Shown here: positions 16,341 through 63,239 of the stretch, in pieces
Position numbering within the stretch: position 1 is the stretch's first letter
Layout of the letters: each line of letters starts with the position of its first letter
NCBI GenBank assembly: GCA_947313885.1
Contig: CAMZNU010000007.1
Span: forward strand, 1-64,000
Source: an uncultured Clostridia bacterium
GTDB lineage: Bacteria; Bacillota; Clostridia; Lachnospirales; CAMZNU01
DNA length: 64,000 bases
Reading direction: 5' to 3'
Translations under genes and position numbers: made by a program
The notes under the pieces: model-generated
Seen by the model: the letters and a program-made list of their open reading frames with translations, nothing else
The model's database searches: none
Told to the model about the DNA's origin: nothing

Positions 16341-16964
16341 TTAATTTTTCCATTGTTTAGGATTTAAATTCCATTGCTTAGCTTCGATAGAATCCTCTAT
16401 AGATAAATAATTTTCATCTACAGCTAAATTTATTAAATCAGGAAAATTACATAAAGTTTCGAAATTACAGTTAGCCTTTTTAAAATTATTTTTAGTGCTT
16501 TCAAAGTCATAAGAAAATATAGCTACTACTTCAACAGAAGATGCGCCGGCATTTCTAGAAGCTTCCACAGCGGAAATACAGCTACCACCAGTAGAAATAA
16601 GGTCTTCAATTACGATAACTTTTTTATTTTTAAGAGAACCGCCTTCAACTTGGTTACCTGTTCCGTGAGCTTTAGGTTTAGAACGAATGTATGCCATAGG
16701 TATATTATATCTTTCGGCGATGAAACTAGCCCATGGTATTCCAGCTGTAGAAGTACCAGCGATAATATCAAAGTCCTTAGTTTTAAGAACGGTAGAAAAG
16801 GCATCAACAATAATATCACGTTGTTTAGGAAAACCGATAACTGTGCGATTATCACAATAAATAGGCGACTTAATACCAGATACAAAAGTAAAATGATCTT
16901 TAACATTTAGTTTTACAGCTCCTACAGATAATAATGATTGTGCTACTAGTTTTGAGTTATTCAT
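16341..16964 (-). CDS. pyrE: orotate phosphoribosyltransferase
   Basis: VIEDLISTGGSCISAVEA PRPP motif; YCDNRTVIGFP. Confidence 0.95.
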   Translation of the reverse strand: MNNSKLVAQSLLSVGAVKLNVKDHFTFVSGIKSPIYCDNRTVIGFPKQRDIIVDAFSTVLKTKDFDIIAGTSTAGIPWASFIAERYNIPMAYIRSKPKAHGTGNQVEGGSLKNKKVIVIEDLISTGGSCISAVEASRNAGASSVEVVAIFSYDFESTKNNFKKANCNFETLCNFPDLINLAVDENYLSIEDSIEAKQWNLNPKQWKN

Positions 16965-18159
16965 AATTTATTTCCCTCCCTGTATTGTTAAAAAAAACGT
17001 TGTCATTAAAAACTATATTACCATTTACAATAGTTGTTAAAACATCACCGAAGCCACTAAAATTATGGAAAGGTGTCCATTTGCATTTGGAAACAATAGT
17101 ATCATTAGTAATTTTAAAAGGTTTGTTTAAGTCAACAATGACTAAGTCAGCACAAAAATCTTTTTTAAGAAACCCTCTTTTTTCTATGTTAAATATTTGG
17201 CTTGGGTTGTTACACATAAGAGATATAAGTTTTTCCATAGTAAGTTTGTTTTGATTAACGGAATTTAACATAAGAGGTAAAGAAGTTTCAACACCGCCAA
17301 CGCCAAATGTAAGATTTTCTAATTTTTCATTTAATAAATGAGGTGCATGATCAGAACCTAATGTATCTATAATTCCGTTGTTAATACAGTCCCATAAATA
17401 ATTACAATCTAAATTACTTTTAAGTTCGGGTTTCATTCTAAGTAATGGATTATTTTTAAGATCATCTTCATTTAAAAATAAATGATGGGGTGTAACTTCT
17501 ACTGTAAAATTACTAGTAGATTTGTATTTTTCTATAGTTTTCAATTCATCTTTAGAAGAAATATGACAAAGATGTAAAGGGGTAGAACATTTGTTACTTA
17601 TGTTAATAGATTTTTCTACCATTTCATTTTCGCCGTGTACAGTAATTAACTTTGACTTTGAAAAAATATTTTCAAGAGTGTCATTATCTTCTACTAACAT
17701 TTTTCCAGTTGATACGTTCATAAATACTTTAGTAGATGCTATATTTAATTTTGGAATTTCATTAGAGTTATCATAATTAGAACCACCGAAATGAAACCCA
17801 TAATTAACGACAGAAGTTTTAGAAGCTAAATCTCTTTTTAAATTTAGATTATTAACAGTAGTCGTAGTAGGTATAGTATTTGGCATATCGATAAAAGTAG
17901 TAACACCACCTTTAGCACAAGCTAAAGAACCAGAATAAAAATCTTCTTTGTGACTAAGTCCAGGAGTACGCATATGAACATGACAATCAATGACTCCAGG
18001 GATAACATAATATAATCCTTTCAAATCAATTATTTTTACATTAGTGTCATCAACGTTAATAATATTTTCTATTTTACTTATTTTATCATTTTGGATAAGA
18101 ATATCTTTAAGTACGAAATTGTTGCCATGAGTAATAACTCTAGCATTTTTAATTAGCAT
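16957..18159 (-). CDS. pyrC: dihydroorotase
   Basis: PGVIDCHVHMRTPGLSHKEDFYSGSLACAKGGVTTFIDMPNT; DTLGSDHAPH. Confidence 0.96.
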   Translation of the reverse strand: MLIKNARVITHGNNFVLKDILIQNDKISKIENIINVDDTNVKIIDLKGLYYVIPGVIDCHVHMRTPGLSHKEDFYSGSLACAKGGVTTFIDMPNTIPTTTTVNNLNLKRDLASKTSVVNYGFHFGGSNYDNSNEIPKLNIASTKVFMNVSTGKMLVEDNDTLENIFSKSKLITVHGENEMVEKSINISNKCSTPLHLCHISSKDELKTIEKYKSTSNFTVEVTPHHLFLNEDDLKNNPLLRMKPELKSNLDCNYLWDCINNGIIDTLGSDHAPHLLNEKLENLTFGVGGVETSLPLMLNSVNQNKLTMEKLISLMCNNPSQIFNIEKRGFLKKDFCADLVIVDLNKPFKITNDTIVSKCKWTPFHNFSGFGDVLTTIVNGNIVFNDNVFFNNTGREINYE

Positions 18160-18875
18160 AAAAGTAACCCCTCCTCAATTTCGTTAATAATTAAATCGAT
18201 AGCTTTAATAGGGTCATGAGATTTAGTAATAGGACGACCTATTACTAAAAAATCAGCACCGTTTTTAATAGCATCTTTAGGAGTCATAATTCTTTTTTGA
18301 TCATCTACAGATGCAAAAGATGGTCTAACGCCAGGGCAAATAGTATAAAAATCATTACCGCATAAATTTTTGATTTTTTTAGCTTCTATAGGAGAGCAAA
18401 CAACACCGTTAAGTCCAGCATTTTTACTTTGGACGGCAAGGTGAGTAGCAAGTTCTGAGGCATTTAAAGAAGTTTTAAACTGTTCCATAATTTCTTTATC
18501 AGAAAAAGAAGTTAGGACAGTAACGCCAATACATAATGAATTAGAATTAGAAGTTTTTATAGTAGTTACAACTTTCTCCATGGCGGTAACGCCTATAGAA
18601 CAATGTACATTAAACATAAAAACTTTTTCTTTAATGGCAAAAAGTGAAGCCATAGCAGTTGTATTAGGAATATCATGAAATTTTAAATCTAAAAAAACTT
18701 TTTTATTTAAACTGTGTAAATAGTCTATAGCTTCTCCGCGGGTGTTAAGGAACAATTCAAGACCAACTTTATAAACGTTAACTTTATCGCCTATAGAGGT
18801 AACTATTTTTTTAACATCATTTAAATTTGTATAATCTAAAGCTACTATTAATCTGTCGCAATTATTTAAAATCAT
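18153..18875 (-). CDS. pyrF: orotidine 5'-phosphate decarboxylase
   Basis: DRLIVALDYTN...VFLDLKFHDIPNT...FLVIGRPIT. Confidence 0.96.
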   Translation of the reverse strand: MILNNCDRLIVALDYTNLNDVKKIVTSIGDKVNVYKVGLELFLNTRGEAIDYLHSLNKKVFLDLKFHDIPNTTAMASLFAIKEKVFMFNVHCSIGVTAMEKVVTTIKTSNSNSLCIGVTVLTSFSDKEIMEQFKTSLNASELATHLAVQSKNAGLNGVVCSPIEAKKIKNLCGNDFYTICPGVRPSFASVDDQKRIMTPKDAIKNGADFLVIGRPITKSHDPIKAIDLIINEIEEGLLLC

Positions 18876-19822
18876 AATTTTATCCTTTCTCTATAAGAAA
18901 CTCCGTTATCAGGATGTGCAAGCCCAATTAAAGATGAAATACAATCTATACCGTTATCATTTAAATATTTTTCAAGTCCTTGTTTAATTTCTAATGGAAG
19001 TGTAGGGTTTGAAAATAAAGAACTACCAAGAGAGATACAAGTAGCACCCGCCATAAAAAACTCTATAGCATCATTAGTTGATGATATTCCGCCCATACCT
19101 AAAATAGGTATTGATACTTGTTGTGAAACTTGATAGATCATTCTAAGGGCGATAGGTTTTATAGCAGGACCAGATAACCCACCCATAACATTACCGAGTA
19201 AAGGTTTTTTACTTTTAATATCAATAGAAATACCTAATAAAGTATTTATTAAAGCGATAGCATCAGCCCCTTCTTCTTCTACTATTTTAGAAATTTCAAC
19301 GATGTTAGTAACGTTAGGAGATAATTTAACTATAAGAGGCTTAGATAAAACTTTACGAACTTCATGAGTTACATGTCTAGCCATTTTAGGGTTAGACCCA
19401 AATGCCATACCACCATCTTTAACGTTAGGACATGAAATATTAAGTTCTACAATATCAATTTCTTTTATAAGTTCGATTTTTTTAGCAAGCTGTACATAGT
19501 CATCTAGTACACTACCGTTAATATTAGCGACTAGAGGTATAGAAATTTCTTTTTTTATTGATGGTAATAATTTTTTAAATTCATTTATACCAGGATTTTC
19601 AAGACCTACACAATTTAACATACCAGAAGGCGTCTCAGCGATGCGAATACCTTTGTTACCGTTACGAGGTTCTAAAGTTATACCTTTTAAAACTACAGCA
19701 CCTAGTTCATTTGGATTAAAGTAATCTTTATATTCAAGACCGTAGCCAAAACAACCAGAGGCTGTTAATAATGGATTATTTAAATCAATACCTAAAAAAT
19801 TTAAATTCAAATTATTATTCAT
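18872..19822 (-). CDS. pyrD: dihydroorotate dehydrogenase (class 1B catalytic subunit)
   Basis: NPLLTASGCFGYG...ELNISCPNVK...GGLSGPAIKPIALRM. Confidence 0.96.
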   Translation of the reverse strand: MNNNLNLNFLGIDLNNPLLTASGCFGYGLEYKDYFNPNELGAVVLKGITLEPRNGNKGIRIAETPSGMLNCVGLENPGINEFKKLLPSIKKEISIPLVANINGSVLDDYVQLAKKIELIKEIDIVELNISCPNVKDGGMAFGSNPKMARHVTHEVRKVLSKPLIVKLSPNVTNIVEISKIVEEEGADAIALINTLLGISIDIKSKKPLLGNVMGGLSGPAIKPIALRMIYQVSQQVSIPILGMGGISSTNDAIEFFMAGATCISLGSSLFSNPTLPLEIKQGLEKYLNDNGIDCISSLIGLAHPDNGVSYRERIKL

Positions 19823-20597
19823 TAGTACCTCCTATATTTTCTTCTATAATGTCTAAACTGTTAAAAACAGGACCATCATAGCAAACTTTTTTCATGCCAT
19901 TTTTTGTAATGATAGAACAACCAACACATGCTTTAATACCGCAGGCCATTCTTTCTTCTAAAGAAATTTCACACAATATGTTGTGTTTATGGCTAAGACG
20001 TGCGACAGCTTCCATCATTTTAAAAGGACCACAAGTATAAATTAAATCTATATTATTTTTTTCTAATATGGGATTTAAAGCATCTATAACATTACCAGTA
20101 ATTCCAGTAGAGCCATCTAACGTTGTAATTATGTTATGTACATTAGGAAAATTAAAACGTTCAACGATTTTAATAGAATGCGAATCACTAGCACCAGCTA
20201 TAAAAGTTATGTTGTTATTAGGTAATAATGATTTAATTAAATATTTCATAGGTGCGATACCAATGCCACCGCCGATAACAACAATATTTTTGTTAATGGG
20301 AGTTGTAGAAAAACCGTTACCTAATGAACCATGAATGTTAATAACGTCATTAGGACGTAAGTTAGAAATTTCATAAGTGCCAGATCCTAATGCTTCATAA
20401 TAAAATTCTAAAATGTTACCGTCTATATTGTGCAAACTTATAGGTCGTCGTAAAATACGAGAATTATCATTACTTTTAATCATAAAAAATTGTCCAGCTT
20501 TAGCATTGGTACATAATTTTTTAGTAAGTACTTTTAATAAAAAATAATTATTTGAAATATTAATATTTTCTAAAACTATTACGTCTTCTAAAAACAT
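19815..20597 (-). CDS. pyrK: dihydroorotate dehydrogenase electron transfer subunit
   Basis: FAD/NAD binding motifs and CGIKACVGCSI...C [2Fe-2S] ligands. Confidence 0.94.
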   Translation of the reverse strand: MFLEDVIVLENINISNNYFLLKVLTKKLCTNAKAGQFFMIKSNDNSRILRRPISLHNIDGNILEFYYEALGSGTYEISNLRPNDVINIHGSLGNGFSTTPINKNIVVIGGGIGIAPMKYLIKSLLPNNNITFIAGASDSHSIKIVERFNFPNVHNIITTLDGSTGITGNVIDALNPILEKNNIDLIYTCGPFKMMEAVARLSHKHNILCEISLEERMACGIKACVGCSIITKNGMKKVCYDGPVFNSLDIIEENIGGTNE

Positions 20598-20613
20598 AAA
20601 TTAACCTCCACAT

Positions 20614-20654
20614 AAAAAAAGGAATAAATGCAAAATGAATTAGCATTTATTCCT
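20614..20654 (-). terminator. attenuator terminator in pyrK operon leader
   Basis: minus strand AGGAATAAATGC-TAATTCATTTT-GCATTTATTCCT then U7; lies between leader ORF and pyrK RBS. Confidence 0.92.
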
Positions 20655-20735
20655 ACAACATATTAAATTATTAATTAAAAAAAACGGGGCAAACACAATT
20701 AAAAAAAATTCATTTACAATATAAAATTTTTTCAT
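20640..20735 (-). CDS. pyr leader peptide, 31 aa: MKKFYIVNEFFLIVFAPFFLINNLICCRNKC
   Basis: minus strand AAGGAGG RBS 9 nt before ATG; stop TAA at the loop-side end of the terminator 5' arm; two U8 tracts. Confidence 0.8.
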   Translation of the reverse strand: MKKFYIVNEFFLIVFAPFFLINNLICCRNKC

Positions 20736-20766
20736 AAGCGTGTGCCTCCTTTTTCATATTAAAAAG

Positions 20767-20795
20767 ATAGTAACATAAGTAAAAAAAATTGTCAA
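20767..20795 (-). promoter_or_regulatory. promoter of pyrK-D-F-C-E operon
   Basis: minus strand TTGACA (20795-20790) - 17 nt - TACTAT (20772-20767). Confidence 0.85.
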
Positions 20796-20892
20796 AGGAA
20801 ATATATATAATATATACAACAATAAGTAAATACTGTATAATTTTAAAAAAAGAACATATATTTAATAAAAATCTTTATAGGAGGTAAGTTAA

Positions 20893-21474
20893 ATGTGTGA
20901 AAATAATTTTAAAATTGTATATTCAAAAGATGTTCAAAACATTAACTTTTTAGATGATATATTAAAGCTAGATAAAGAGGTATATGAAGATAGTATGTTA
21001 GGAACTAAAAAAAAATTAGAAGAGGAATTTATGAAAAATAAAGAAAGCTATATATTACTTTATAATAAAGAACAATTAATTGGATACAAATGTTTTTTTC
21101 CAGTTACTAATGAAGCAAAAAAAGAAATATTAACAGGGGAAGAAAATTTTGACGATAATATTACAAATGATGATATTTGCGAGTATGGAAACATAAACAA
21201 CTTATTTTTAATATCAATAGTAATATCAAAAAAATATCAAAATACAAAAGGTATAGTGTATTTAAATGAAGCGTTTAAAAAATTTTTATTAAATAAAAAC
21301 GAAGATGGTAAAAAAATAAAATCAATAATGGCTATAGCAGTTAGTGGAAATGGTGTTAAATACTTAGAAAGAAATAATTTTAAAGAAAAGAAAAAAATAG
21401 ACGATAACCATAAATTATACGTATGCGATGAAGAGGGAGTTAGGGGAATATACAATGGAGAACATAGAAAATAA
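20893..21474 (+). CDS. hypothetical protein, possibly GNAT-like acetyltransferase
   Basis: GAGG RBS; size and pattern (…YILLYNKEQLIGYKCFFPV…VISKKYQNTKG…) suggest GNAT fold. Confidence 0.5.
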   Translation: MCENNFKIVYSKDVQNINFLDDILKLDKEVYEDSMLGTKKKLEEEFMKNKESYILLYNKEQLIGYKCFFPVTNEAKKEILTGEENFDDNITNDDICEYGNINNLFLISIVISKKYQNTKGIVYLNEAFKKFLLNKNEDGKKIKSIMAIAVSGNGVKYLERNNFKEKKKIDDNHKLYVCDEEGVRGIYNGEHRK

Positions 21475-22756
21475 AAAAGAGAAACCAGAAGAACAAAAGG
21501 TAGCAAGTCATATATATCTTATATTTCCAGTTAGTAAAATGAACGGTTATGATGAAAAAATTAATATTAAAAACGGTAAAATGAAAAAAGAATATGATGC
21601 CTATGAAAAAGAAATGGAAGCTACTTATAAATATGAATGTATAGAAGAAGTTTCTAGTAGTATAAAAAAGAAATATTTAGGGTCATATAAATTTCCGATT
21701 ATTAAAGATGATAAATATGGTGAATTTAATGGATGTGTAAAATATGAAAAATGTATAAAACGTATAAAAGAGGTTGATGTTTTCGTATCTATGTCTAGCC
21801 ATGAAGATAGTAAAACGTATTTATTAACTATTGTAATACCGATACCAGAAGATAGTTATTTAGTTACAAATATATTAGACCAAATATCAAGTTCGAACAT
21901 TTATTTAAGGAATAAAAAATATGATAAAGAATATGATAAAGTAGATAGTTTTAAAGAATATGATAAAGTAGATAGTTTTATAAAAGAGAATTTAAAGGTA
22001 GAAAGAGAAGGGGATTATAAAACGGTTATTTGTTTAAAAGAAAAACCAGAAGAAGAAATATTAACAGCGATATTAGCGGGAGAAAGTTATGATAGTAAAG
22101 AAGTAGATTATGGAATTAATAAAGGCGTTATGAAAGAAAGCCTTGAAAATAACATAGCTAAATACAATTTTTATGAAGCGTATATATCGAGAAAAGTTTT
22201 TTTGTATGCTTTAAAGGACTTTAATGAGGACTATATTAAAAATGTAGAAAAAGAAACGTTGTTATTATATATAATAGAATTAGTAATATTTAAATATGGA
22301 GCATTAAAAATAGCAACAAAGAAGATTAGTAAAATAGAAAATGGAGCAAAATTAGAAAAAGTGATAAAAATAAATGAATATGTAGAAAAAAGTCCTATGT
22401 CTTGGAATAATGATACTGTGAAATATTTGTTAGCTAAAGAATTATATCAAGACATAGAGAAATGGTTTAAGATAAATGAAGCAGAAGAGTATTATGTAAT
22501 GAAAAATAATTTAATTGAAAAAAGACTAGAGTTATATGAGATGAGAAAAATAAAAGAACTAACGAAAGACGCTATAACTATAGCGATTAAATCTTTAGTT
22601 GTGGCTATAATAGGAATATACATAAGTACACAGAAAAATTACAAAATTTGGAGAAACATAGAAAGAAACGAATATATTATTGCTATTGTGATTACATTAA
22701 TATTAATAATGCCAGCACTATTAGCAGTAAAACATTACTTTTCAAATAAAAATTGA
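21455..22756 (+). CDS. hypothetical protein with two C-terminal TM helices
   Basis: ORF listed from 21428; ATG at 21455 preceded by AGGGG is the more likely start. Confidence 0.6.
   Translation: MENIENKKEKPEEQKVASHIYLIFPVSKMNGYDEKINIKNGKMKKEYDAYEKEMEATYKYECIEEVSSSIKKKYLGSYKFPIIKDDKYGEFNGCVKYEKCIKRIKEVDVFVSMSSHEDSKTYLLTIVIPIPEDSYLVTNILDQISSSNIYLRNKKYDKEYDKVDSFKEYDKVDSFIKENLKVEREGDYKTVICLKEKPEEEILTAILAGESYDSKEVDYGINKGVMKESLENNIAKYNFYEAYISRKVFLYALKDFNEDYIKNVEKETLLLYIIELVIFKYGALKIATKKISKIENGAKLEKVIKINEYVEKSPMSWNNDTVKYLLAKELYQDIEKWFKINEAEEYYVMKNNLIEKRLELYEMRKIKELTKDAITIAIKSLVVAIIGIYISTQKNYKIWRNIERNEYIIAIVITLILIMPALLAVKHYFSNKN
21929..21982 (+). repeat. 27-bp in-frame tandem duplication (EYDKVDSFK x2)
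   Basis: gaatatgataaagtagatagttttaaa / gaatatgataaagtagatagttttata. Confidence 0.95.
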
Positions 22757-22781
22757 CACTACATAAAACAATTGATAATAT
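22753..22781 (+). promoter_or_regulatory. promoter of carA-carB-pyrB operon
   Basis: TTGACA - 17 nt - TAATAT; -35 overlaps the upstream gene's stop codon. Confidence 0.8.
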
Positions 22782-22816
22782 AATAAAAATCAACAAAAAT
22801 AAGGGAGGCAAATATA

Positions 22817-22930
22817 ATGGAAATCAAATTTAAAAATATACAGTTTAAAAATAAAAAATTTAGAAGTGATATTTTTTTAATTGATTCATTAGACAATGCT
22901 TTTTATTTATATTTAAGGAATAATAACTAA
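22817..22930 (+). CDS. car leader peptide, 37 aa: MEIKFKNIQFKNKKFRSDIFLIDSLDNAFYLYLRNNN
   Basis: AGGGAGG RBS; stop TAA forms the end of the 5' arm of the downstream terminator. Confidence 0.8.
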   Translation: MEIKFKNIQFKNKKFRSDIFLIDSLDNAFYLYLRNNN

Positions 22931-22957
22931 TTTATTTTAGTTATTGTTCCTTTTTTT
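22916..22957 (+). terminator. attenuator terminator in carA operon leader
   Basis: AGGAATAATAACTAA-TTTATT-TTAGTTATTGTTCCT (15 bp, one G.U) then U7, immediately before carA RBS. Confidence 0.92.
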
Positions 22958-22971
22958 ATGAGGAGGAAAAT

Positions 22972-24039
22972 ATGAAAGGTAGATTAATATTAGAAAACGG
23001 ATTAGTTTTTGAAGGAAAAGTTTTTGGGTATATAGAACAGTCAGTAGGTGAAGTTGTATTTAATACATCAATGACAGGATATCAAGAAATATTAACAGAC
23101 CCATCATATTACGGACAGATGGTAGTGATGACGTACCCAATGATAGGTAATTATGGTTTAAACCTTGATGATTTAGAAAGCGACGGAGGAAAAGTTAGAG
23201 GTTTAATAATAAAAGAGCCTGCAAAGTTACCAAACAACTTTAGATGTGAGATGACATTAGAAGGGTATTTAAGACAACATAAAATAATAGGGTTTAAAGG
23301 AATAGACACAAGACACCTAACAAAAGTAATAAGAGATAAAGGTGTAATGAAAGGAATAATTACAACAGAAGAATTAACCCAAGAACAAATAAAAAAAGAG
23401 ATAGGAAAATTTTCGAATTTAGAAGCTGTGAGTATAGTAAGTACAAAAAATACATATGAAATGCCATGTAATAAAAAAGAGGTAGTAGCTAAAATAGGGA
23501 TGATAGATTATGGAATTAAAAGAAATATAATAAGATCATTTCATGAAAAGGGATGTGACTTAACGGTATTTCCATGGGACGTTACAGCTAAGGAAGTTTT
23601 AGAACATAATATAGATGGAATATTTTTATCAAATGGTCCAGGAGATCCAGCACAATTAAAAGAAGTAGTTGAGGAAATAAAAAAGATGATAGGTAAGAAA
23701 CCTATAGTAGGAATATGTTTAGGACATCAGTTGTTAGCAATTGCGTTAGGTGGAAGTACGATGAAATTAAAATTTGGACATAGAGGGGCAAACCACCCAG
23801 TAAAAGATTTAGAAAAAAACAAAATATTTATAACGTCGCAAAACCATGGGTATGTAGTAGATAAAATACCAGAGGGAGTAGATGTAACACAAATAAATTT
23901 AAATGATAATTCTATTGAGGGTATGAAAGATTATAAAAATAAAATAGCGTCAGTACAATATCATCCAGAGGCATCACCAGGACCTAAAGATTCAAAATAT
24001 ATTTTTGATGATTTTATAAAGTTAATAAAGGAGGCATAA
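22972..24039 (+). CDS. carA: carbamoyl-phosphate synthase small subunit
   Basis: [31 protein letters not shown] glutaminase motif. Confidence 0.97.
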
Positions 24040-24040
24040 C

Positions 24041-27000
24041 ATGTTAGATAAAAGTATAAAGAAAACTTTAGTAATAGGTTCAGGACCAATAGTAATAGGA
24101 CAAGGAGCAGAGTTTGACTATTCGGGGACACAAGCATGTGAGACGTTAAAAGAAGAAGGTATAGAAGTAGTATTAATAAATTCAAATCCAGCAACGATAA
24201 TGACGGATAAAGAAGTAGCAGATAGAATATATATAGAGCCGATAACGTTAGAATATGTAAAAAAAGTTATAGAAAAAGAAAAACCAGATTCTGTATTAGT
24301 GGGAATGGGTGGACAAACGGCGTTAAATATGGCGATAGAATTAGAGGAAAGTGGGTTACTAAAAAAACATGGAATAAAAGTGCTAGGTAGTAGTATTAAA
24401 TCTATAAAGCGTGGAGAAGATAGAGATTTATTTAGGGAAGCGATGGATAAAATAAATGAACCTACTATAGAAAGTGCCATAGTAGAAAATTTAGAAGATG
24501 GTTTAAAATTTGCAAATAAAGTAGGATATCCGTTAATAGTGAGACCAGCGTATACGTTAGGTGGAACAGGTGGCGGAATGGCAGACGATGAAGAGCAGTT
24601 AAAAAATATATTATTAAAAGGGTTAGTATTATCACGAGTTGGACAGGTATTAGTGGAAAAATCTATATTAGGGTGGAAAGAAGTAGAATATGAAGTAATG
24701 AGAGATGAAAACGGAAATAAAATAACAGTATGTAATATGGAAAATATAGATCCAGTAGGAATACATACAGGAGATAGTATAGTAGTAGCACCATCACAAA
24801 CGTTATCAGATAAAGATTATCAAATGTTAAGAACGTCGGCATTAAATATAATAGAAGAAATAGGAATAGTAGGTGGATGTAACGTACAATTTGCATTACA
24901 TCCAGATTCTTTTGAGTATGCCATTATAGAAATAAACCCAAGGGTATCGAGATCATCGGCATTAGCATCAAAAGCTACAGGATATCCAATAGCAAGAGTT
25001 GCGACAAAGCTATCATTAGGGTATACGTTAGACGAAATAAAAAATGACGTTACGGGAAAAACTTATGCGTGTTTTGAACCAGCGTTAGATTATATAGTAG
25101 TTAAAATACCAAAATGGCCATTTGATAAATTTATGAAGGCAGATAGAAGGTTAGGAACGAAGATGATGGCAACAGGGGAAGTAATGGCTATAGGTAATAA
25201 CTTTGAGTCAGCATTTTTAAAAGGGGTAAGGTCGTTAGAGATAGGGCAATATGGATTAGAACATAGTGTATCAAAATCTATGTCATTAGAACAATTAAAA
25301 AAGAGAATAGTAAACCCGAATGATGAAAGAATATTTGACCTTGCGGAAATGTTAAGACGAGGGTATACAAAAAGTATGTTACAAAAACTAACGGGAATGG
25401 ATCCATTTTTTATGGAAAAACTTCAATGGATAGTAGGGCAAGAAGAAATATTAAAAAAGACAAAATTAAGTGATTTAACGAAAAAGAAACTAAAGAATTG
25501 GAAGAAAAAAGGATTTTCAGATAAGGCAATATCAAATTTTATGGGAATAGAAGAAGAAGATTTAGTAGTAAAAAGAAAATCTTTAGGAGTTATACCAGTT
25601 TATAAAATGGTAGATACTTGTGCAGGTGAATTTGAAGCTACATCATCATATTTTTATTCAACATATGACGATGTAGATGAAGTAGAAGTATCAAATAAAA
25701 GAAAAATAATAGTAGTAGGTTCAGGACCAATAAGAATAGGGCAAGGAATAGAATTTGATTACTGTACAGTACATACTGTAAAAACATTAAAAAAATTAAA
25801 TATAGAAACGATAATAATAAACAATAATCCAGAGACGGTATCAACGGATTTTTCTACAGCGGATAAATTGTATTTTGAGCCGTTAGTGTTAGAAGACGTA
25901 ATGAACATAATAGAAAAAGAAAAACCAGAAGGGGTAATATTACAATTTGGAGGACAGACGGCAATAAAGCTAGCAAATGACTTACATAGATTAGGAGTAA
26001 ATATAATAGGAACGTCAGCAAAAAACGTTGACCGTGCAGAAGATAGAGAAAAGTTTGAGGAAGTATTAGAAAAATTAAATATAAAGAGACCAAAAGGTAA
26101 AGGTGTATGGAAAGTTCAAGATGGAATAGATGAGGGAAATAGATTAGGTTATCCTGTGTTAGTTAGACCATCATATGTACTAGGTGGTCAAGGAATGGAA
26201 ATATGTTATGAAGAAAAAAACTTAAAAATGTATTTAGAAGATTCATTTATAAGAGACCCTAAAAATCCTGTGTTAGTAGATAAGTATTTAAATGGTATAG
26301 AAATAGAAGTAGATGCAATATGTGATTTAGAAGATGTATTAATACCAGGGGTGATGGAGCATTTAGAAAGAGCGGGAATACATTCGGGAGATTCTATAAC
26401 GGTGTATCCGCAACAAAATTTATACGAAGGTACAGAAGAAAAAATATTAGAGATAACGAAGAAGTTAGCAAAAGAGTTAGAAGTAATAGGGATGATGAAT
26501 ATACAATTTATAGCATATGAAGGGGAAATATATATAATAGAAGTTAATTTAAGATCATCAAGAACAGTGCCGTACATATCAAAAGTATCAGGAGTACCGA
26601 TGATAGAATTAAGTACAAAAATAATGAACGGTGAAAAATTAAAAAACTTAGGTTACGGAGTAGGACTATATAAGAAACCAGATATAGTAGCAGTAAAAGT
26701 GCCAGTATTTTCTACAGAGAAATTAGGAGGAGTAGAAGTATCATTAGGACCAGAAATGAAATCAACGGGGGAAGTATTAGGAGTAGGAAAAACAGTAGAT
26801 GAGGCGATATATAAAGGATTAGTAGGCGGGTATAGAATACATGATATAAAAAATAAAAAAATATTAGCAACAATAAAAGAAAGTGATAGAGAAGAGTTTT
26901 TAAGTTTAGCAAAAAGATTAAAAAACCAAGGTTGTGAACTTATAGGAACAAAAGGTACAGCAAAATTTTTAAACGATAACGGTATAGTGTGTGGCGGAGT

Positions 27001-27247
27001 AAATAAAATAAATGAGGAGTCACCGAATATAATAGATAAATTAAAAAATCAGAAAATAGATTTATTAATAAATACGCCGACAAAAGCAAATGATGCACAA
27101 AGAGATGGATTTAAAATAAGAAGAACGGCGATAGAGTACGGGGTAGAAGTAATGACGTCACTAGATACGTTAGGGGCAGTATTGAATATAATAGAAAGTA
27201 AAATTGATAAAGAGGATTTAGAAATATTTGATATTAGTAAATTGTAG
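24041..27247 (+). CDS. carB: carbamoyl-phosphate synthase large subunit
   Basis: 1068 aa with duplicated ATP-grasp halves. Confidence 0.98.
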
Positions 27248-27256
27248 GAGGATACG

Positions 27257-28279
27257 ATGAAAGAAATATTAACTCTTAATAATTTAGATAAAGAAGACAT
27301 AATAAAAATATTAGATAAAGCAAGTGAAATAGAAGAAGGTGGAGGAAAAAAATACGCAGATAAAATTATGTCAGCGATATTTTTCGAACCATCGACGAGA
27401 ACAAAACTATCATTTATAAGTGCCATGTATAGGTTAGGAGGTAAAGTAATTGAATTAGATGGTGGTGGAAATAATTCTTTAAAAAAAGGTGAAAGTATAT
27501 CAGACACGTTAAAAACTATGGGATTATATACGGATATAATGGTAGTTAGAAGCCCCTATGAAGGTACAGCAAAAAGAGGCAGTGAAATAGTAGATATACC
27601 AGTAATAAATGGAGGAGATGGATCGAACCAGCACCCGACTCAGACGTTATTAGATTTATATACGATAAGAAAAGAAAAAGGAAGGTTAGATAATTTAAAT
27701 GTTGCTGTTGTTGGAGATTTAAAATATGGCAGAACAGTACATTCTTTAGTAGAGGCATTAAATAAATTTAAGGGGAACAAAGTATATTTTGTTGCACCTA
27801 AGGAAATGATGATACCAAAATATGTAACAGATAAATTAAAATTAGAATATGAAATAACGGAAAATTTAGAAGAAATTGTAGGAGACGTTGATATTTTGTA
27901 TATGACAAGAATACAAGAAGAAAGGTTTGAAAATAAAGAACATATTAAAAGATGTAAAGGTAAATATATAATAGATAAAGAAATTTTAAAAATAAGTAAA
28001 AAAGATATGAGTATATTACACTCGTTACCACGTGTTGATGAAATACATACAAATTTAGATGATACGCCAAATGCATTGTACTTTGATCAAGCAAAAAATG
28101 GAATATACGTAAGAGAGAGTATAATTTCTATGTTGTTAGAAAAAAATGAAAAACCAAAATATGATGGAAAAGGGTATGAATGTAAAAATAAAAAATGTAT
28201 AAGTTACATAGAAAAGTTAGAAGGCAAATATATAGGTAACGAAAGTAATAAAATATGTTTTTATTGTGAGAAAAAATAG
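27257..28279 (+). CDS. pyrB: aspartate carbamoyltransferase with C-terminal PyrI-like zinc domain
   Basis: FFEPSTRTKLSF; GGDGSNQHPTQTLLDLYTI; C-terminal CKNKKCIS...ICFYCEKK. Confidence 0.95.
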   Translation: MKEILTLNNLDKEDIIKILDKASEIEEGGGKKYADKIMSAIFFEPSTRTKLSFISAMYRLGGKVIELDGGGNNSLKKGESISDTLKTMGLYTDIMVVRSPYEGTAKRGSEIVDIPVINGGDGSNQHPTQTLLDLYTIRKEKGRLDNLNVAVVGDLKYGRTVHSLVEALNKFKGNKVYFVAPKEMMIPKYVTDKLKLEYEITENLEEIVGDVDILYMTRIQEERFENKEHIKRCKGKYIIDKEILKISKKDMSILHSLPRVDEIHTNLDDTPNALYFDQAKNGIYVRESIISMLLEKNEKPKYDGKGYECKNKKCISYIEKLEGKYIGNESNKICFYCEKK

Positions 28280-41612: not shown

Positions 41613-42395
41613 TTACATTGCCTGTTTCATCTCAAGACGTAATTTGTCAGCGATAATAGCGATGAATTCGCTATTAGTAGGTTTACCTTTTGTACTACTA
41701 ATTATATAACCAAAAACATTATCCTTAGCCTCTAAAGTGCCACGAGACCAAGCAACTTCTATTGCATGACGTATAGCACGTTCTACGCGACTAGGTGTAG
41801 TGTTGCATTTAGTTGCGATTGTAGGGTATAGTTCTTTAGTTATGTAATTTAAAACATCCATGTCCTCAACAGCAATCATAATAGATTCACGCATATAATG
41901 ATATCCTCTAATATGTGCAGGTACACCTATTTCATGGAGAATATTAGTAACTTTAGCTTCTAAATTAAAAGAATTAGTACGATTATTGTAATTAGTAGAA
42001 TTAATAGTATCGTTACTAACTACTTGTCTAATACGATTAACTAAAGCGTTCATATCAAAAGGTTTGGCCATATAATAATCTACACCTAAGTTAACAGCTT
42101 GTTGAGTAACTTTCTCTTGGGTCATAGCAGATACCATGATGCAAAATGTATCATTTGTGAGGTCTTTATTAGCTTTAATTTTTTCTAATAAACCAAGACC
42201 ATCTAATTCTGGCATAATTCCATCCATAAGAACTAGATCAGGTTTAGAACTACAAATCTTTTTGTAAGCATCGAGACCATTATGAGCTGTAGAAATCACC
42301 TCTAAGCCATCTTGCATATTAAGAAAAGATTTTAAAACATCACAAAATTCTACGTTATCATCGGCTAAAACTATTTTTATTGTATCATTATCCAT
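41613..42395 (-). CDS. spo0A: sporulation transcription factor Spo0A
   Basis: receiver domain ([11 protein letters not shown]...[13 protein letters not shown]) plus Spo0A effector domain ([17 protein letters not shown]...[20 protein letters not shown]); start 42395 because the upstream GGGGG is its RBS. Confidence 0.97.
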
Positions 42396-42680
42396 CGAAT
42401 TGTCCCCCAATTATTTAATAAGTGTTATTTACTAACTAAACATAGTATAATACCAAAAAATGGTAATTGCAAGGAAAAAAGGTAAAAAAATACAATTTGG
42501 AACGGGAAATATAATGATAAAATGGGGAAATGTATAATATAAGGAAGATGTAGAAGATAAAATAAATTAGGGTAATATTTTGGGAAATTTGAAAAAATAA
42601 GAAAAATAAATTTAATGTGAAATTTTTATTAGTAACATATTAAAGAGTAATAAAAATTTAAATATAAATATGATAAAAAA

Positions 42681-61696: not shown

Positions 61697-61795
61697 ATGA
61701 GCGAAGAAGAAAAAGAAATATACGAAATAATAAATAACATAGTAAATTTTATAGATAAAAAGAATAGTGAAACTAAAATAAAAGGGAGTGTATAA
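61697..61795 (+). CDS. small ORF, 32 aa (MSEEEKEIYEIINNIVNFIDKKNSETKIKGSV)
   Basis: GAGAGG RBS; lies between the DUF6240-like gene and flagellin; stop adjacent to flagellin start. Confidence 0.5.
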   Translation: MSEEEKEIYEIINNIVNFIDKKNSETKIKGSV

Positions 61796-61796
61796 A

Positions 61797-63239
61797 ATGA
61801 GAATTAATCATAACATAGCATCATTAAATATAGCGCAACAATTAAGAAATTCAAATAAGAGGATGACGTTATCGTCAACTAGATTATCATCAGGAGTAAG
61901 AATAAATTCTGTAAAAGATGATGCAACAGGAATGGCGATATCAACAAAGTTAGAAAATCAAGAAAGAGGATTAGGAAAGGCTAGAGAAAATTCATTAAAC
62001 GGTATATCACTAATTCAGACACTAGATGGAACATTAAGTTCGATACATAGCATGGTGCATAAAATGCGTGAGTTATCGATACAAGCAAGTAATGATACGA
62101 ATACGACGTCAGATAGAGAAAAGATGCAAAAAGAGGTAGAACAATTGAAGCAAGAAATAGATGTAGCTGCGAAAAACACATCATTTAATAATATAAAGTT
62201 GTTATATGGTGATAGTGAGAGACTTGTATATAATAGTGAGCCTGTAGCAGGAGGAGTAACCTTCGTATCAGATAGTATGAAAAAAGGTACATTAGAATAT
62301 ACTGTAGATAAAATAGGAAAGCCAGCATCTTTAGATATAGAAATACCATCAGGAACAGTACCGTTAGGACTAGAAGGTAAAATTTTTGTAAATGGTGCAG
62401 AATTAAATGTGAATCTAGAAGATACAGCAGATGATATAGGTGTAAAATTATTAAAAGCTTATGACAATGCAGGGATGGAACTAATAAAATTGGGAACAGG
62501 AAAAAATAAGTTAGTAACATTAGATGAAGGTTCAGAAGAAAAAATAAACATAGAGGATAAAGATGATATATTAATGAAAGCAGGATTTATAATATCAAAC
62601 TTAGAAGATGGAACAGATGCGCAAGTAACGTTAAACGGATATACAGATAAGGAGTTTGAAAGCACAGCAAAAATAACGACGAAAGGTAATCATATAGAAA
62701 TAGTAAGTGATGGAGGAAAACAAATAAATATAGATTTAAACTTTACTGTATCAGAGAGTACAGGACAATATGAATTAAATGATGGTAATAGTGTAGGGAT
62801 AGACGTTGGTGGGGGATTAAAATTAGAAGCAAAAATAACAGAGCATGGTGGTATAAAAATACAAGTAGGACAAAATAAAGATATGGAATTAGATTTATTT
62901 GTAGAAAAAATCGATCTAAAATCATTAGGTATAGAAAATTTAAGTATAGGTACGTTTATAGGTGCACAAAAAGGTATTCAAAAATTAGACATAGCTGTAG
63001 AAAAAATATCATTAATAAGAGCAAAGGCGGGAGCGTATCAAAATAGATTTGAATATACTATAAAAAACTTAGATACAGCTCAAGATAATACAACAATAGC
63101 ATTAAGTAGAATACGAGATACAGATATGGCAAAAGAGATGACAGAGTATAGTAAGCATCAAGTAATATACCAAGCGGGAATTTCGATACTAGCACAATCA
63201 AATCAAAGACCACAGCAAATATTGCAACTATTAGGATAG
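61797..63239 (+). CDS. flagellin
   Basis: MRINHNIASLNIAQQLRNSNKRMTLSSTRLSSGVRINSVKDDATGMAIS; C-term DTDMAKEMTEYSKHQVIYQAGISILAQSNQRPQQILQLLG. Confidence 0.97.
   Translation: MRINHNIASLNIAQQLRNSNKRMTLSSTRLSSGVRINSVKDDATGMAISTKLENQERGLGKARENSLNGISLIQTLDGTLSSIHSMVHKMRELSIQASNDTNTTSDREKMQKEVEQLKQEIDVAAKNTSFNNIKLLYGDSERLVYNSEPVAGGVTFVSDSMKKGTLEYTVDKIGKPASLDIEIPSGTVPLGLEGKIFVNGAELNVNLEDTADDIGVKLLKAYDNAGMELIKLGTGKNKLVTLDEGSEEKINIEDKDDILMKAGFIISNLEDGTDAQVTLNGYTDKEFESTAKITTKGNHIEIVSDGGKQINIDLNFTVSESTGQYELNDGNSVGIDVGGGLKLEAKITEHGGIKIQVGQNKDMELDLFVEKIDLKSLGIENLSIGTFIGAQKGIQKLDIAVEKISLIRAKAGAYQNRFEYTIKNLDTAQDNTTIALSRIRDTDMAKEMTEYSKHQVIYQAGISILAQSNQRPQQILQLLG

Follow-up and report, generated by a model that had tools for sequence, protein, structure and literature searches.

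Predicted pyrBI-type leader attenuators in front of the pyrimidine operons of Fusobacteriota and of a clostridial pyr cluster most likely acquired from them

How are the pyrimidine operons of a clostridial genome controlled when each is preceded by a short open reading frame (ORF) that ends in a terminator? The question is raised by a stretch of 64,000 nucleotides from an uncultured Clostridia bacterium, hereafter the window, in which two divergent pyr operons are preceded by such leaders. Ribosome-blocked attenuation in response to UTP is the textbook case of enteric bacteria, in which transcription and translation are coupled. An earlier note on this DNA had proposed that the pyrK operon of the window is controlled in the same way.

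All the parts that were claimed for the pyrK leader, i.e., promoter, Shine-Dalgarno (SD) sequence, 31-codon ORF, two T8 tracts, 12-bp stem, stop codon, U7 tail and pyrK ribosome-binding site, are at the positions noted (Table 1), and the pyrK start codon lies 23 nt 3' of the leader hairpin. The 11-nt loop of this hairpin exceeds the 8-nt limit of a simple terminator scan, in which it was missed for that reason, and a second scan recovers it. A second, independent copy of the leader (22753-22971, plus strand), absent from the earlier note, is found 2 kb away before carA. The two leader peptides of the window have no overall similarity by eye, and the register of stop codon, hairpin and U zone is alike in both.

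Table 1. Leader features and downstream operons, with coordinates as positions in the window
Feature	Position	Strand	Detail or basis
pyrK-leader promoter TTGACA-17-TACTAT, TG before the -10	20767..20795	-	TTGACA 20795-20790; TACTAT 20772-20767; sequence
SD AAGGAGG of pyrK leader ORF	20745..20751	-	9 nt to ATG (20735)
pyrK leader ORF, 31 codons, MKKFYIVNEFFLIVFAPFFLINNLICCRNKC	20640..20735	-	stop TAA 20642-20640, the first three loop bases
U-rich segment, two U8 tracts 5' of hairpin, putative slow or pause zone	20677..20708	-	tracts 20708-20701 and 20684-20677
Intrinsic terminator hairpin, perfect 12-bp stem AGGAATAAATGC/GCATTTATTCCT, 11-nt loop	20620..20654	-	hairpin scan
U7 terminator tail	20614..20620	-	first T doubles as stem-closing base
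pyrK SD GGAGG	20605..20609	-	pyrK ATG at 20597
pyrK-pyrD-pyrF-pyrC-pyrE operon, behind first leader	16341..20597	-	NCBIfam
carA-leader promoter TTGACA-17-TAATAT	22753..22781	+	
SD GGGAGG of carA leader ORF	22803..22808	+	
carA leader ORF, 37 codons, MEIKFKNIQFKNKKFRSDIFLIDSLDNAFYLYLRNNN	22817..22930	+	stop TAA 22928-22930, within hairpin
U7 tract in carA leader ORF (IFLI segment)	22872..22878	+	
Intrinsic terminator hairpin, 16 pairs, AAGGAATAATAACTAA[TTTATT]TTAGTTATTGTTCCTT	22915..22952	+	
U tail of carA-leader terminator	22951..22957	+	followed by carA SD at 22961-22966
carA-carB-pyrB operon, behind second leader	22972..28279	+	NCBIfam

We consider it likely that both leaders are attenuators of the pyrBI type, in which a ribosome gates the terminator by blocking it and UTP is sensed through the speed of RNA polymerase. 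Transcription would start at the dedicated promoter and the leader ORF would be translated from its strong SD, after which the polymerase would traverse up to ~90 nt of which more than half are U. With ample UTP the polymerase would be fast and ahead of the ribosome, the hairpin would fold and transcription would end upstream of pyrK or carA. When UTP is scarce the polymerase would be slow, and the leading ribosome, at the stop codon within the hairpin, would cover the 5' arm, leaving the hairpin unfolded and the operon transcribed.

To place the two leaders in a wider context, the DNA upstream of carA, pyrB and pyrK was surveyed in 76 Fusobacteriota genomes, many of them draft assemblies, using one automatic hairpin finder. 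Leaders were found before carA, pyrB or pyrK in 55 genomes (54 Fusobacteriota and that of the window), 83 in all, with leaders on two different operons in 26 of these genomes. At carA and pyrB of 22 other Fusobacteriota genomes the automatic finder returned no leader, a number that is an upper limit because bulged hairpins are scored only partly (e.g., F. mortiferum pyrB, read by eye), and one automatic ORF call (L157) was removed by eye as the end of an upstream coding region. The leader peptides are divergent, forming 42 clusters at <55% identity, and their ORFs have 31-71 codons (median 42.5) and start with ATG (71), GTG (6) or TTG (6). An ORF with a good SD runs into the hairpin at 56 of the 61 distinct fusobacterial and window pyr leader loci that have a hairpin, against 0.8 expected from dinucleotide shuffles, and promoters matching at least 10/12 lie no more than 90 nt upstream of the leader start in 31 of 42 clusters, against 1.9 expected. 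The peptide motif FL(K/T)DVPYI(T/I) is common to the carA and pyrK leaders of one Fusobacteriota group (L087, L115, L169 and relatives), a sharing that hints at leader duplication.

The gap from the end of the hairpin to the start codon of the gene is only 17-81 nt (median 31), which is too short for a second promoter in nearly all loci, and expression of the gene therefore needs readthrough of the terminator. By position the leader terminator is an attenuator, and it must be conditional. This bears on the possibility that the ORFs are small-protein genes with terminators of their own, the pyr operons being expressed from promoters of their own, or through partial readthrough at a constant level. 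Genes of species with runaway transcription often end right at terminators (PMC7858274, PMC13323073), and a pN/pS of 0.51 for the leader peptides indicates weak peptide constraint, both of which would suit such genes, whereas the lack of promoter room, the absence of peptide sequence conservation between clusters and the restricted occurrence of the combination, which is typical of carA, pyrB and pyrK, argue against them. The background was estimated in one 1.93-Mb Fusobacteriota chromosome (G081) with 171 terminators no more than 150 nt before a gene. A short ORF with a strong SD ends at 13 of them (12 of 170 excluding carA), several of these ORFs look by eye like ordinary gene ends, and among the 13 only that of the carA leader is >50% U; the pyr loci differ from the remaining terminators with a Fisher P of 1e-35. 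We therefore give the small-protein reading very little probability. The same chromosome has a 47-codon, Leu-rich ORF of 44% U (MINENQFETIIDLLQKK...; C3 ~263312, minus strand) with its end in a terminator 52 nt upstream of a 245-aa gene, possibly an unrelated attenuator.

The stop codons of the leaders lie no more than 12 nt before the 5' arm in 9 cases, in the 5' arm in 13, in the loop in 14, in the 3' arm in 2 and beyond the hairpin in 4. Since these positions are at, in or past the hairpin, a ribosome that ends or passes there would cover the 5' arm; for ORFs that end just before the hairpin, any blocking depends on the footprint of the ribosome. In E. coli, termination falls from ~90% to <10% when a stop codon lies a few bp upstream of the terminator; the leader genes of amino-acid attenuators end more than 20 bp short of the terminator, whereas that of pyrBI contains it (PMC4824070). 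Judged by their sequences, the window and fusobacterial leaders have a register of the pyrBI kind, unlike that of amino-acid attenuators. Bacillota and Fusobacteria are both classed as runaway-transcription phyla, in which the polymerase outruns the ribosomes (PMC13323073). Terminators near stop codons are ordinary in such phyla, and therefore the register alone is weaker evidence than it would be in E. coli. Default termination at high UTP would be natural in runaway phyla, and a slowed polymerase would let the ribosome arrive.

Attenuation of transcription in the pyr operons of Firmicutes is usually PyrR-dependent (RF00515), and PyrR elements are found in 12 of 56 relatives from the order, in line with a PyrR site, a riboswitch or another RNA-binding regulator acting on the terminator. 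The genome of the window (G000) differs from such systems in having neither component. No Rfam family, PyrR included, matched the leaders of the window, there was no PyrR RNA elsewhere in G000, and none of the seven PRTase-fold matches in the genome (assembly 95.8% complete) is PyrR, these being Hpt, Apt, Upp and PyrE (NCBIfam) and PRPP synthetase, PurF and a ComFC-like protein (by reading). The earlier note, which had seen no PyrR-like site in the leader and no pyrR in the window, is borne out on both counts. Furthermore, the leaders of 20 fusobacterial loci gave no Rfam sensor match. Low-threshold Rfam matches to the plastid psbA 3'UTR fall below the gathering score and were set aside as a likeness of hairpin shape. 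A search for pairings that would compete for the 5' arm, i.e., for an antiterminator, found none (mean z 0.15). Of 99 Fusobacteriota genomes, only 3 (G077-G079) have a PyrR protein above cut-off, which is encoded beside pyrB (L226 region), and there is no leader upstream of carA in G077, the only one of the three whose carA upstream was read. This pattern suggests that PyrR and the leader may replace each other as pyr controls in Fusobacteriota. For the leaders studied here, the PyrR or riboswitch reading is already largely refuted and keeps only a trace of probability. Taken with the second copy and the conserved register, the lack of PyrR and of an antiterminator largely supports the pyrBI-type anatomy claimed in the earlier note.

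The composition of the leaders points to the candidate signal. The U fraction of the leader ORF bodies is 0.47, rising to 0.54-0.60 over the final 50 nt 5' of the hairpin, compared with 0.29 in the downstream coding sequences (CDS), and the last 90 nt of the leaders are ~55% U. The excess is present at all three codon positions; at two-fold synonymous sites T:C is 591:60 in leaders and 720:185 in downstream CDS (P 9e-10), and at four-fold synonymous sites the enrichment has a P of only 0.07. The earlier note had put its emphasis on the U8 tracts, and this emphasis is not borne out. Tracts of U>=6 are rarer than expected from codon shuffles (40 vs 53.6), as are those of U>=8 (5 vs 15.3), so that long U tracts were rejected as the property under selection; the feature is therefore U density, enriched overall just before the hairpin, and not single long runs. 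Tracts of U4-5 are enriched in the leader ORFs where those of U>=6 are depleted, as if long slippery runs were avoided. The NusG-type motif TTNTTT occurs at 27.5/kb in leaders and 3.2/kb in CDS, but its 136 instances fall short of the codon-shuffled expectation of 184, so that selection for it is not indicated. Start-site reiterative transcription, known from E. coli pyrBI, was rejected here for lack of a consistent U run at the predicted starts (by eye). The U density fits UTP-limited elongation, though it is not proof of it.

Leader translation might control the terminator in response to something other than UTP, e.g., charged tRNA for Phe, Asn or Leu, translation initiation overall, or a polymerase speed linked to ppGpp. 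The distance between RNA polymerase and ribosome reacts to a change in either speed, and leader residues are rich in Phe, the most enriched (18.6% vs 5.8% in downstream genes), and Asn (10.4% vs 4.8%). Against this, the 42 divergent clusters have no shared amino-acid code, i.e., no common codon run or position, and the amino acids of the pathway are rare (Gln 0.8%, Asp 3.2%, Arg 2.8%), with none enriched. Moreover, the U enrichment reaches synonymous sites, the downstream genes are all pyrimidine genes, and the pyr leaders have neither the antiterminator nor the distant stop codon that amino-acid attenuators require (PMC4824070). The pathway codon run, antiterminator and early stop of trp- and his-type attenuators are all missing from the pyr leaders. 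A non-UTP signal is in our judgement unlikely. Another possibility is ribosome arrest by the nascent leader peptide in response to a pyrimidine ligand, as TnaC causes in response to tryptophan. The motif shared by the carA and pyrK leaders of one group would favour arrest, but it is missing from the other clusters and from the two leaders of the window, most of the 42 clusters have no shared motif, and arrest would be needed at low pyrimidine, the wrong sign for induction by a ligand. We regard peptide arrest as highly improbable, and UTP sensed by a ribosome-gated terminator as the preferred reading.

The leaders have one further property, in that the SD of the pyrK leader is complementary to TGTGTTTGCCCCGTTTTTTT (20697-20678) in the body of its own ORF. 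In 34 of 42 clusters the leader SD pairs better with its own body than with codon permutations of it (mean z -1.3, P 1.6e-7). The pairing also holds against local permutations (P 6e-4 and 7e-5) and is in the top decile against swapped bodies in 18 of 42 clusters, with the partner centred ~62 nt after the leader start codon. It is not seen in the downstream genes (z +0.23), and in the same test the complementarity of E. coli pyrL was not significant, so that pairing beyond the codon-shuffled expectation distinguishes the fusobacterial and window leaders from pyrL. Within clusters the pairs showed no covariation (retention 0.44, same as slid pairs). It is conceivable, and we suggest it tentatively, that the SD is masked by RNA ~60 nt downstream and that a ribosome would load only if shortage of UTP delays the polymerase in making that RNA. 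If true, polymerase speed would act as an initiation gate as well as in the chase to the terminator, with fast transcription hiding the SD before loading. Similar masking has been described for E. coli trpL.

It remains to be asked how a clostridial genome came to have these leaders. Among relatives from its order, 0 of 29 pyrK upstreams and 0 of 29 carA upstreams have the layout, and clostridial conservation was rejected on this basis. A conserved ORF and stop position, which the earlier note had named as a check on its reading, is thus present in Fusobacteriota, the probable source of the cluster, and not in Clostridia. EF-G was used as the host marker, no 16S having been found in G000, and that of the window has 72-78% identity to its own order vs 65-66% to Fusobacteriota; this affinity, together with a Spo0A-like protein (41613-42410) and a flagellin (61788-63239), the latter two identified by reading the sequence, makes a clostridial Firmicute the most likely host. 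The pyr proteins point elsewhere. PyrK has 50-61% identity to Fusobacteriaceae PyrK (named records) vs at most 43% to its own order, and CarA 77-79% to one Fusobacteriota group vs at most 64%; in the CarA tree the window branches within Fusobacteriota (support 100), joined to that closest group (support 99), whose named members are Fusobacteriia bacterium 4572_74, Psychrilyobacter SW_4_5 and Fusobacteriaceae UBA2433. In this group pyrK and carA are divergent and a few kb apart, as in the window, and therefore the cluster was most likely acquired whole. No other CarA of the fusobacterial kind was found in 392 genomes of the class. From these comparisons, the pyr cluster (16341-28279; pyrKDFCE divergent from carAB-pyrB) is most likely a horizontal acquisition from Fusobacteriota by a clostridial genome, and the leader devices very probably came in together with the genes. 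The PyrB of the window (27257-28279) ends in a short extension with Cys pairs (CKNKKC...CFYC), along which fusobacterial PyrB proteins align and which is similar to the PyrI zinc domain minus the allosteric domain.

The closest known system is E. coli pyrBI with its leader pyrL, which has in common with the leaders described here a promoter, an SD, a short ORF (44 codons in pyrL), a U-rich zone, an intrinsic terminator overlapped by the ORF, no antiterminator and pyrimidine genes downstream. The pyrL ORF stops past the hairpin, +44 nt from its start, and by the same measure the carA leaders of Cetobacterium, which traverse the hairpin and have a TAG overlapping the carA SD, stop at +42; in most fusobacterial leaders and the window, in contrast, the stop is inside the hairpin. 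The fusobacterial device also differs in serving the carA, pyrB and pyrK operons in parallel and in belonging to phyla classed as runaway, and its leader translation, ribosomal blocking and UTP signal, like those of the window, are what we infer from anatomy. By eye, pyrL has no similarity to the fusobacterial and window peptides, and the leaders are assumed to be convergent with it. In B. subtilis tlrB (yxjB), pausing at a T-rich site synchronises polymerase and ribosome and the ribosome prevents termination (PMC6851288). The leader peptide, T-rich region and runaway species are alike there, but tlrB depends on a ribosome stalled by a drug at an arrest motif, whereas the pyr leaders share no such motif and control pyrimidine genes. 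The carA (SRC-12-1) motif of beta-proteobacteria, an extended hairpin directly upstream of carA and a possible riboswitch, has the same position, but belongs to unrelated taxa and comes with no leader ORF in the part of its description available to us (PMC8632094). No prior report joining Fusobacterium, leader peptide, attenuation and pyrimidine was found in the literature searched, the scope of which mostly excluded subscription papers and preprints.

What is new is a pyrBI-type layout in phyla classed as having runaway transcription, together with the unusual complementarity of leader SD and leader body. In much of one deep phylum, most of which is without PyrR, the layout is apparently how pyrimidine operons are normally controlled. 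The presence of the device in Fusobacteriota, from which it would have moved intact to a clostridial genome, implies either a separate origin or one much older than thought. If the proposed mechanism is right, these leaders would be a natural readout of when a ribosome catches a runaway polymerase, and would bear on the coupling of transcription and translation outside E. coli.
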